Below, one piece after another: positions 8,104-10,630 of a stretch of 64,000 nt of DNA. A program made the position numbers and the translations under genes. Source of the DNA: Rhodospirillales bacterium (GTDB lineage Bacteria; Pseudomonadota; Alphaproteobacteria; Rhodospirillales; UBA2165). Each line of letters opens with the position of its first letter. The stretch's first letter is position 1. The notes beneath the pieces were generated by a model that saw only the letters and a list, made by a program, of their open reading frames with translations, searched no databases and had not been told where the DNA came from. The stretch is from assembly GCA_022823235.1 (NCBI GenBank), contig JAJDXO010000049.1, forward strand, positions 1 through 64,000. Direction: 5' to 3'.

Positions 8104-8370
8104 ATGAAATTTGAATTCGACCCGGCCAAGAGCGCATCCAACGGGATCAAGCACGGCATCGACTTCGACGAGGCCCAGGCGCTGTGGGGCGACCCCATGC
8201 TGCTTGAAGCCCCGGCCCGCACCGCCGATGAGCCGCGTTTCATCGTGATCGGCAAGATCGGGAGGCGCCATTGGACGGCGGTTTGCACGCATCGCGGCGA
8301 GCGGATCCGGATAATCTCCGTCCGCCGCGCCACCGCAAAGGAGGTGAAGCGCTATGATGAAAGCCCATGA
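8104..8370 (+). CDS. brnT: BrnT-family ribonuclease toxin
   Basis: 88 residues of the BrnT (DUF497) type II toxin family, a RelE-fold ribonuclease that blocks translation. Typical signatures are the opening FEFDPAKSASNGIKHGIDF, the central RFIVIGKIGRRHWTAVCTHR and the closing ERIRIISVRRATAKEVKRY. The usual arrangement of toxin first and antitoxin second is kept, with 17 nt of overlap with brnA. The conserved His of KHGIDF and the Arg of ISVRRA, implicated in catalysis in the family, are present, so the toxin appears intact. Confidence 0.92.
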   Translation: MKFEFDPAKSASNGIKHGIDFDEAQALWGDPMLLEAPARTADEPRFIVIGKIGRRHWTAVCTHRGERIRIISVRRATAKEVKRYDESP

Positions 8371-8632
8371 GTTCGACAAGGCGTTCGACGACGGAGAGGA
8401 TATCGACGCCCATGTGGATTGGCCGCAAGCCCGGCGCGTGAATGTCGAGACGAAGCGGGTCAATGTCGATTTCCCGGCATGGGTCGTCGCGGCCCTGGAC
8501 CGGCAGGCCCGTGCGCTGGGCGTCCCCCGGCAGTCGCTCATCAAGCTGTGGATCGCCGACCGGCTGAGGGAAACGCCGGACGTCCGCGCGCCGGGCCTCG
8601 CCGAACCGGCGGAGCCGTATACGGCGGAGTGA
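8354..8632 (+). CDS. brnA: BrnA-family antitoxin
   Basis: 92 residues, partner of the preceding toxin. An N-terminal acidic arm (MMKAHEFDKAFDDGEDIDAH) resembles the toxin-wrapping segment. A C-terminal ribbon-helix-helix region follows: VNVDFPAWVVAALDRQARAL then GVPRQSLIKLWIADRLRE. In this family the ribbon-helix-helix dimer represses the operon. The start is the first of two ATG codons inside the end of brnT, and a short Pro/Glu-rich tail follows the DNA-binding region. Its overlap with the toxin supports coupled translation. Confidence 0.9.
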   Translation: MMKAHEFDKAFDDGEDIDAHVDWPQARRVNVETKRVNVDFPAWVVAALDRQARALGVPRQSLIKLWIADRLRETPDVRAPGLAEPAEPYTAE

Positions 8633-8641
8633 ACCCGCGCG

Positions 8642-8953
8642 TCAGCGATGCCGGTTGCGCTGCCGGTAGAGCCAGCGGGTCAGCGCCCGCTGCGTGCCGG
8701 GGATATCCAATATCACCAGAAACAGGCCGAGGGGGAACATCCAGAAGCCGAGGATGGGGAGAAACCCTAAGACGCCGCCGGCCATCAAGCCGATGCCGGC
8801 GACGGTCCTCAGGCCGGGCCTCAGCCGGCGGCGGCCTACATAATGGGCGTGCCGCAGCATGCGGACGAGAAACCCGTCCCATTTGGCAAGAAGGCCGTTC
8901 CGTCCCGGCCGGGCGGCCGCGGCCGCGGAAGCCGGCCGCCTGTCGGCGGTCAC
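8642..8953 (-). CDS. Small membrane protein coupled to the SelW-like gene
   Basis: 103 residues starting at GTG 8953-8951, whose last two bases are shared with the TGA stop of the SelW-like gene (GTGA overlap). This implies translational coupling. The N-terminus is Ala/Arg-rich and cytoplasmic-looking. Two closely spaced hydrophobic segments, at about 50-66 (LRTVAGIGLMAGGVLGFLP) and 67-85 (ILGFWMFPLGLFLVILDIP), would form a hairpin in the inner membrane, and a basic tail ends RWLYRQRNRHR. The layout resembles small PGPGW-type transmembrane proteins, but the signature Pro-Gly-Pro-Gly-Trp is not present. Function unknown; coupling suggests a role tied to the redox protein. Confidence 0.7.
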   Translation of the reverse strand: MTADRRPASAAAAARPGRNGLLAKWDGFLVRMLRHAHYVGRRRLRPGLRTVAGIGLMAGGVLGFLPILGFWMFPLGLFLVILDIPGTQRALTRWLYRQRNRHR

Positions 8954-9186
8954 GCCTCAGGCGCTCCCCAGGCGCTCCCAAGACCGGCAATTTCGTCGTC
9001 GGTCGGAAAGCGGCCCAATTCCTTCTTGGAGAAAACCAGCCGGCCGTCGACGGAAATCTCAAACACGCCGCCGCCGCCCCGGACCAACTCGACATCGGCC
9101 CCGAACCGCTGCTTCAAATCGTCGCTCACACGGAGCGCCCGGGGTTCGTAGTTTCATTGAACGCAATATTCTATGGCGATTTTCAT
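8950..9186 (-). CDS. SelW-like (Rdx family) selenoprotein candidate with in-frame TGA
   Basis: Read through one TGA (9156-9154), the frame encodes 78 residues: MKIAIEYCVQ-U-NYEPRAL, then RVSDDLKQRFGADVELVRGG, VFEISVDGRLVFSKKELGRF and PTDDEIAGLGSAWGAPEA. This is the whole Rdx/SelT-SelW-SelH thioredoxin-like fold. The first strand ends in a CxxC/CxxU redox motif, and the later F-E-I...G-x-L-V-F-S-K-K segment is typical of the family. The TGA is exactly at the second redox position (Cys8, Sec11), followed by N-Y-x-P-R-A, usual in bacterial members. A good Shine-Dalgarno (AGAGGAAAG) lies upstream and the gene is coupled to the next by a GTGA overlap. Alternative: a Cys codon mutated to stop. Conventional ORF finding misses this gene. 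Confidence 0.8.
9123..9137 (-). promoter_or_regulatory. SECIS-like hairpin after the in-frame TGA
   Basis: Sixteen nt after the TGA the mRNA can form CGCTC-CGTGT-GAGCG, a 5-bp stem with a 5-nt loop whose second base is G. A further G-C pair is possible beyond a G-A mismatch. Distance and loop size fit the loose bacterial SECIS description, but the stem is short and sequence alone cannot prove SelB binding. Confidence 0.45.
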
Positions 9187-9263
9187 GCCGGAACTTTCCT
9201 CTGATCGCTTTGGAACGCTGGCCTATATATTCATCCGTCCCGGCTCGATCAATTCGCAAGCCG

Positions 9264-9695
9264 CTATCCGTGCTCGATGTACTCCCGAAGCATCGAGCTT
9301 TCGGATTCGAGCTCATCCAGGCGGAACTTGACCACGTCCCCGATACTGATGACGCCGCTGAGCTTCCCGTCATCCATGACGGGAAGATGGCGAATCCGGT
9401 GCGACGTCATATCGCGCATGAGTTGGTCTATTTCATCGCCGGGCGAGCAGGTGACCACGGCCTTGGTCATCAGTTCCTCGACCTTCCGGCCCATCAGGCC
9501 GACACCGGCCGAAGACAGGCCCCGGACAATGTCCCGCTCGGACAGGATACCGGCCAGTTCACCGTCGCTGGAGACCACCAGAACGGCACCGATTCTTTCT
9601 TGTACGAGCAACTTGACGGCATCCGAAACGCTGAGGTCGGGCTCGATGGTAATCATGCGATCGCCCTTGTCCCTTAAGATCGCCGATACATGCAT
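9264..9695 (-). CDS. CBS-pair domain protein
   Basis: 143 residues from MHVSAILRDKGDRMITIEPD, the usual start of stand-alone tandem-CBS proteins; the open frame runs 17 codons further upstream without family character. CBS1 spans about 8-60 (LSVSDAVKLLVQERIGAVLV, then GELAGILSERDIVRGL). CBS2 spans about 72-125 (VEELMTKAVVTCSPGDEIDQ, then RHLPVMDDGKLSGVISIGDV). A C-terminal helix (KFRLDELESESSMLREYIEH) is typical of this family. Such proteins bind adenine nucleotides or NADH and act as sensors; the partner is unknown. It lies 77 nt upstream of the SelW-like gene on the same strand, so co-transcription is possible. Confidence 0.9.
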   Translation of the reverse strand: MHVSAILRDKGDRMITIEPDLSVSDAVKLLVQERIGAVLVVSSDGELAGILSERDIVRGLSSAGVGLMGRKVEELMTKAVVTCSPGDEIDQLMRDMTSHRIRHLPVMDDGKLSGVISIGDVVKFRLDELESESSMLREYIEHG

Positions 9696-9766
9696 TGGTG
9701 CCTCCCGCGTCAGCCGCACTGTCAAACCGAGTGTAGGACAGGTCACCGTGAGATTCTAGCGGCTAC

Positions 9767-9793
9767 TCCCTCTCCCTCCCCGAGGGAGAGGGA
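9767..9793. repeat. Isolated 12-bp palindrome of repeat family R
   Basis: TCCCTCTCCCTC and GAGGGAGAGGGA form a perfect 12-bp hairpin around a short loop, just past the stop of the MBL gene. It has the sequence of the terminal hairpin of family R and may help end that transcript, though no T-run follows. Confidence 0.7.
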
Positions 9794-9799
9794 CCATGC

Positions 9800-10630
9800 T
9801 TAGCCGAGCTCGAACTCCATCAGCTCGCGAACCACGAAGGCATGCTCCCACTCGTTGCGGGCGTCTTCGGCCAGACGGTCCATAAAGTCGTCGTCGTGGT
9901 CCGGGTCATGGTGGAAGATGCCGAGCCGCTTCACGTTCGCCTCCCTGCACAGCGCGACGCCCTCGTTCCAGGTCGAATGGCCCCATCCGACGCGCGACGG
10001 GAACTCCTCTTCGGTGTAGGTGGAATCGTACATCACCAGATCGGCGCCATCGATGAGGCCGAGGACATTTTCGTCGTGCTGGCCGGGTACGTGCTCGGTG
10101 TCCGTAATCAGGCAGAACGACTTTCCTTCATATTCGATCCGGTACCCGGTCGCCTCGTTGGGGTGATTGAGCGGCGCCGTCCTGATCGTGACATCCGATC
10201 CGCTGCCCACCGTGAAGCTGTCGCCGGCCGCGAAATCGTCGAAGTTCAAATTCGCCCGCATGGCCTCCAGGGGAACCGGGAACACGGGGTTGTCCATCTG
10301 CGCCTGGAAGACGCTCTTGATGCCCCCGCGGTCGAAGAGGTGCCCGGCCTTGATGTCGAACGTCCGCGACGGATCGGACGCCGGCGCGAAAAACGGGAAG
10401 CCGTTGATGTGGTCCCAATGGGTGTGGGTGAGAAATATGTGGCAGTCCTTGAGCTCCGAGCGGAGCAGCTCCTTTCCGAGGGTGCGAATACCGGTCCCGC
10501 AATCCAAAAGAATTTTGGTGCCGCCCGCATCGACTTCGAGGCTGGTGGTATTGCCGCCGTAACGCATATGGGTCGGATGAGGGCACGCAATGCTGCCCCG
10601 GCAACCCCAGACCTTGACGCGCAGGCTCAT
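9800..10630 (-). CDS. MBL-fold metallo-hydrolase (cyclic-nucleotide phosphodiesterase-like)
   Basis: 276 residues of the metallo-beta-lactamase superfamily. The N-terminus MSLRVKVWGCRGSIACPHPT and GGNTTSLEVDAGGTKILLDC mark the branch often annotated as cAMP phosphodiesterase class II-like or PhnP-like. Metal ligands are visible in THTHWDH (about 70-76), in TAPLNHPNEATGYRIE, in the aspartate of LITDTEHVP, and in a late histidine (GIFHHDPDHDDD). The HxHxDH motif is intact, so binuclear metal hydrolysis is expected; the substrate is not evident. It is the first gene of a minus-strand run that includes the CBS and SelW-like genes. Confidence 0.88.
   Translation of the reverse strand: MSLRVKVWGCRGSIACPHPTHMRYGGNTTSLEVDAGGTKILLDCGTGIRTLGKELLRSELKDCHIFLTHTHWDHINGFPFFAPASDPSRTFDIKAGHLFDRGGIKSVFQAQMDNPVFPVPLEAMRANLNFDDFAAGDSFTVGSGSDVTIRTAPLNHPNEATGYRIEYEGKSFCLITDTEHVPGQHDENVLGLIDGADLVMYDSTYTEEEFPSRVGWGHSTWNEGVALCREANVKRLGIFHHDPDHDDDFMDRLAEDARNEWEHAFVVRELMEFELG

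Follow-up and report, generated by a model that had tools for sequence, protein, structure and literature searches.

A SelW-like selenoprotein gene with an in-frame TGA codon at the Rdx-family redox motif of a Rhodospirillales bacterium

The DNA analysed here is a stretch of 64,000 nucleotides from a Rhodospirillales bacterium (contig JAJDXO010000049.1), referred to below as the window. On its minus strand lies a small gene of the Rdx family whose reading frame contains an internal TGA, flanked by a CBS-domain gene upstream and a gene for a small protein downstream. The features of this locus are as follows.

8642–8953, minus strand: next gene, 103 residues, with a hydrophobic stretch and no family found; its GTG start overlaps the selenoprotein stop
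8950–9186, minus strand: selenoprotein gene of the SelW-like type (Rdx family), encoding 78 residues, with residue 11 being selenocysteine (translated with TGA as U; Pfam Rdx and NCBIfam SelT/SelW/SelH matches above cut-off)
9123–9137, minus strand: predicted bacterial SECIS hairpin with a 5-bp stem (CGCUC/GAGCG), loop CGUGU and the loop G at 9131 (covariation and synonymous codon uniformity)
9154–9156, minus strand: in-frame TGA, read as selenocysteine, at the final position of CVQU (TGA in 59/59 Sec-type loci, counted as described below; TGC or TGT in L060–L065)
9163–9165, minus strand: codon for Cys8, which opens the CxxU redox motif (Cys in every homologue listed)
9197–9202, minus strand: Shine-Dalgarno-like AGAGGA, purine-rich, 10 nt 5' of the ATG (read from the sequence; L009 and L010 have a comparable purine run at this position)
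9264–9746, minus strand: upstream gene with two CBS domains, a neighbour outside the selenoprotein (Pfam CBS; found beside the selenoprotein gene in each of the genus's three species)

The frame starts with ATG at 9186–9184, ten codons precede the internal TGA (9156–9154, codon 11), and the frame is then open to a terminal TGA at 8952–8950. These positions, with the end at 8950 and the length of 78 residues, are exactly those given in a preliminary description of this DNA. When the TGA is translated as selenocysteine, the product (MKIAIEYCVQUNYEPRALRVSDDLKQRFGADVELVRGGGGVFEISVDGRLVFSKKELGRFPTDDEIAGLGSAWGAPEA) has CVQU as residues 8–11, near the N-terminus and at the position of the CxxC of homologues. 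The read-through protein matched Pfam PF10262 Rdx over residues 2–66 (E 2.6e-20; 72.8 bits, cut-off 22.6), NCBIfam NF041051 (SelT/SelW/SelH; 98.7 bits against a cut-off of 88) and NCBIfam TIGR02174 (CXXU_selWTH; 63.1 bits against a cut-off of 34.2). All three matches span the TGA, demonstrating homology on both of its sides, in agreement with the earlier proposal of an Rdx-family protein that continues across a TGA at the second redox position. The Shine-Dalgarno sequence proposed upstream of the ATG corresponds to the purine-rich AGAGGA at 9202–9197. A gene caller that treats TGA as a stop only would cut this gene to ten codons.

Translational coupling to the next gene had also been proposed. 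The selenoprotein stop and the next-gene start do overlap in the sequence GTGA in the window; however, the genus has three species, and only that of the window and one congener share the overlap, so coupling is plausible and is not a conserved feature. The other congener (G012; L010/L082) has TGA in place of a TGG close to the C-terminus, along with a short repeated insertion; its selenoprotein therefore probably stops some residues sooner and no longer overlaps the next gene. Eight genomes of the host family have the 103-residue gene beside the selenoprotein gene, and no Pfam match was obtained for the 103-residue protein even at E 10. Beyond it, on the plus strand at 8104–8632, a BrnT-type toxin gene is followed by a partner that is weakly similar to CopG antitoxins; the pair is probably a type II toxin-antitoxin system.

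The genome (3.78 Mb in 60 contigs, 98.8% complete) contains all four of the components whose presence the preliminary description proposed to check. A tRNA-Sec was found on contig C46 (78.4 bits) and was called by ARAGORN as tRNA-SeC with anticodon tca. The selA (596.1 bits) and selB (459.9 bits) genes are neighbours on C60. The selD gene on C58 (409.5 bits) carries its own in-frame TGA, within GGGUGCK, the usual place of selenocysteine in SelD. Two weaker tRNA-Sec matches in the genome proved to be other tRNAs, one a tRNA-Ser on C30 and the other a tRNA-Cys located in the window, and the matches to formate dehydrogenase alpha in the genome contained no in-frame TGA. The host very probably uses selenocysteine.

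The TGA followed by an intact downstream frame was found at 59 loci, a count that includes the window's own locus and two genomes picked up by two tools; both other species of the genus are among them. This form ranges across Alphaproteobacteria, Desulfobacterota and Poribacteria. Dozens of genomes repeat this frame with its TGA and the sequence that follows, which excludes chance. Cys (TGC or TGT) occupies the selenocysteine position in six distant homologues (L060–L065; Microbulbifer, Pantoea and Rhodobacteraceae). Close relatives hold TGA and not Cys, and the frame beyond it is intact in them. Neither an absence of sel genes nor relatives with Cys or a stop together with a lost frame, the two observations named earlier as contrary to the selenoprotein reading, was encountered. 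Since the window species has diverged little from its two congeners, selection on those pairs is weak evidence, and the pairwise synonymous and non-synonymous counts contain too few changes to inform.

Co-occurrence with selA was examined in 36 genomes reached via the homologues. A selA gene above cut-off was present in 29 of the 31 genomes with the TGA form (no clear selA in the other 2) and in none of the 5 Cys-form genomes (Fisher p = 6e-5, uncorrected for kinship). The association is weak within the host family, where 12 of 24 genomes have the TGA form and selA was found in 9/12 of those and 7/12 of the rest. In three genomes of this family with a TGA-type Rdx, G007 (L090), G008 (L088) and G023 (L089), neither selA nor a selB above cut-off was found. 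Their assemblies reach 89%, 66% and 88% completeness, respectively, and G007 has a strong tRNA-Sec. Incomplete assembly is the likely reason for the missing genes, but two of the three are species of one genus and have this gap in common.

Closely 3' of the TGA, starting 16 nt after it, a shared hairpin was identified in an ungapped alignment (A1) of 23 diverse sequences read from the TGA. Columns 20–24 pair with columns 30–34 (9137–9123 in the window), and G26 in the small apical loop is invariant across the alignment. Pairing was observed in 91% of cells, compared with at most 51% in slid controls. Compensatory changes altered both sides in 13 cells, in three of the five pairs, a count as high in 0/500 shuffles; columns 21/33, for example, form G-C in the window and C-G in most relatives. 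The covariation score was 0.403; shuffles gave 0.163 ± 0.032, with 0/500 reaching the observed score, and slid controls gave no more than 0.122. The shuffle figure is not a strict probability, because some of the aligned sequences are related and the structure was picked from them by visual inspection. The synonymous codons of residues 18–21, inside the hairpin, were 2.6–3.7 times more uniform than expected, a level that almost no other position in the gene attains. When single 45-nt stretches were folded by minimum free energy, the results differed between sequences; they were not taken as evidence, and the covariation count was used instead. An Rfam search of 8500–9800 at a permissive threshold gave matches at chance level only and no SECIS family. 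We conclude from the comparative pattern that the hairpin is a predicted bacterial SECIS.

Other readings of the internal TGA have to be weighed against these observations. The codon is one base away from both TGC and TGT and distant homologues carry Cys there, as would fit a pseudogene or a sequencing error in which a Cys codon became TGA. However, the TGA is shared by both congeners and more than 50 other loci, with downstream frames intact, and the hairpin has been kept with compensatory changes, which leaves a chance close to nil for this explanation. The open frame beyond the TGA would also be expected if TGA were generally reassigned or leaky and Trp, for example, were inserted instead of selenocysteine. 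Against this, the distant homologues have Cys and not Trp, TGA terminates both the SelW-like gene and the next gene (8642–8953), and the genome holds the complete selenocysteine machinery; we consider such reassignment or leakiness extremely improbable. An in-frame GTG at residue 20 could in principle start a separate product behind a short leader that ends at the TGA. This GTG, however, is part of the SECIS-like hairpin, 10 aligned sequences have GCG instead, and a start there would part the redox Cys from the rest of a domain that the family model spans as one; the likelihood of a second start is minute.

We conclude that the gene almost certainly encodes a SelW-like Rdx selenoprotein, a probable redox protein, with the UGA at codon 11 decoded as selenocysteine under the guidance of the hairpin. 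The claim of selenocysteine at this TGA, made in the preliminary description, is supported by the sel genes, the conserved TGA and the SECIS-like hairpin. SelB and tRNA-Sec would decode the UGA, with the hairpin 16 nt beyond it directing the insertion. The product would be small, and a thioredoxin-like fold is probable from its sequence relatives with solved structures, which include Selenoprotein W (PDB 2npb), Agrobacterium Atu0228 (2fa8) and C17orf37 (2ljk). Cys8 and Sec11 could form a reversible selenenylsulfide, and the protein would probably work as a thiol/glutathione-linked redox protein. The frame, the family membership, the conserved TGA, the selenocysteine machinery and the conservation of the hairpin are shown by the sequence analysis; knowledge of the Rdx/SelW family suggests selenocysteine insertion, the fold and the redox role.

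Peroxiredoxin and CMD searches of the genome (G000) returned nine more matches, each with one in-frame TGA.

C19:29256-29636, C38:84519-84956, C47:41543-41869 and C9:4451-4897: four AhpC-TSA-type candidates (L122–L125; TPGU, UPYC, UPPC, UPPY)
C52:30310-31199 (two, close together), C56:148619-148798, C14:5040-5285 and C38:34739-34912: five AhpD/CMD-like candidates (L126–L129; CxxU motifs CNHU, CAYU, CKYU in two, CNYU)

The UPPY candidate reads SYTUPPY...IYIREAHADDGW and perhaps resembles deiodinase-like proteins. In all nine the TGA sits within a plausible selenocysteine motif, and all are probable further selenoproteins. Bacterial selenoproteins are known among peroxiredoxins (TxxU and UxxC), AhpD-like proteins (CxxU) and deiodinase-like proteins (PMC2398784, PMC1088965). 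Together with Rdx and SelD, the total is about eleven selenoprotein candidates. On balance we lean towards an alphaproteobacterial lineage with an unusually large selenoprotein set, comprising Rdx, SelD, four peroxiredoxin/thioredoxin/deiodinase-like and five AhpD/CMD-like candidates. If so, this selenium-rich group would lie outside the Deltaproteobacteria and Clostridia, the classic cases.

The SelW-like selenoprotein family was already described by 2005, and the reading of the gene given here is correct but ordinary. SelW-like proteins were reported to be the most abundant selenoprotein family in the Sargasso Sea (48 genes, CXXU; PMC1088965), lead the table for Global Ocean Sampling with 427 genes (PMC2398784) and are listed among several bacterial selenoproteomes (PMC1794560). 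Their function is probably redox though unclear, and an interaction with glutathione has been reported (PMC1088965). No paper was found when the literature was searched for alphaproteobacterial Rdx selenoproteins. With this gene the known family gains one species, and the understanding of selenium biology is unchanged. The gene shares with the described bacterial SelW-like selenoprotein the CxxU motif, the selenocysteine position and a SECIS just 3' of the UGA; nothing essential differs, and the species alone is new (PMC1088965, PMC2398784). Similarly, no difference was found from the PF10262, TIGR02174 and NF041051 families, all three cut-offs of which the protein exceeds. The Cys-type Rdx proteins (for example L060–L065; Atu0228, PDB 2fa8) belong to the same family, with Cys in place of selenocysteine; L060–L065 have CxxC where the window protein has CxxU. 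Eukaryotic selenoprotein W (PDB 2npb) is by sequence also of the same family, but its SECIS lies in the 3' UTR (PMC1088965), whereas the predicted element of the window gene lies inside the coding region.
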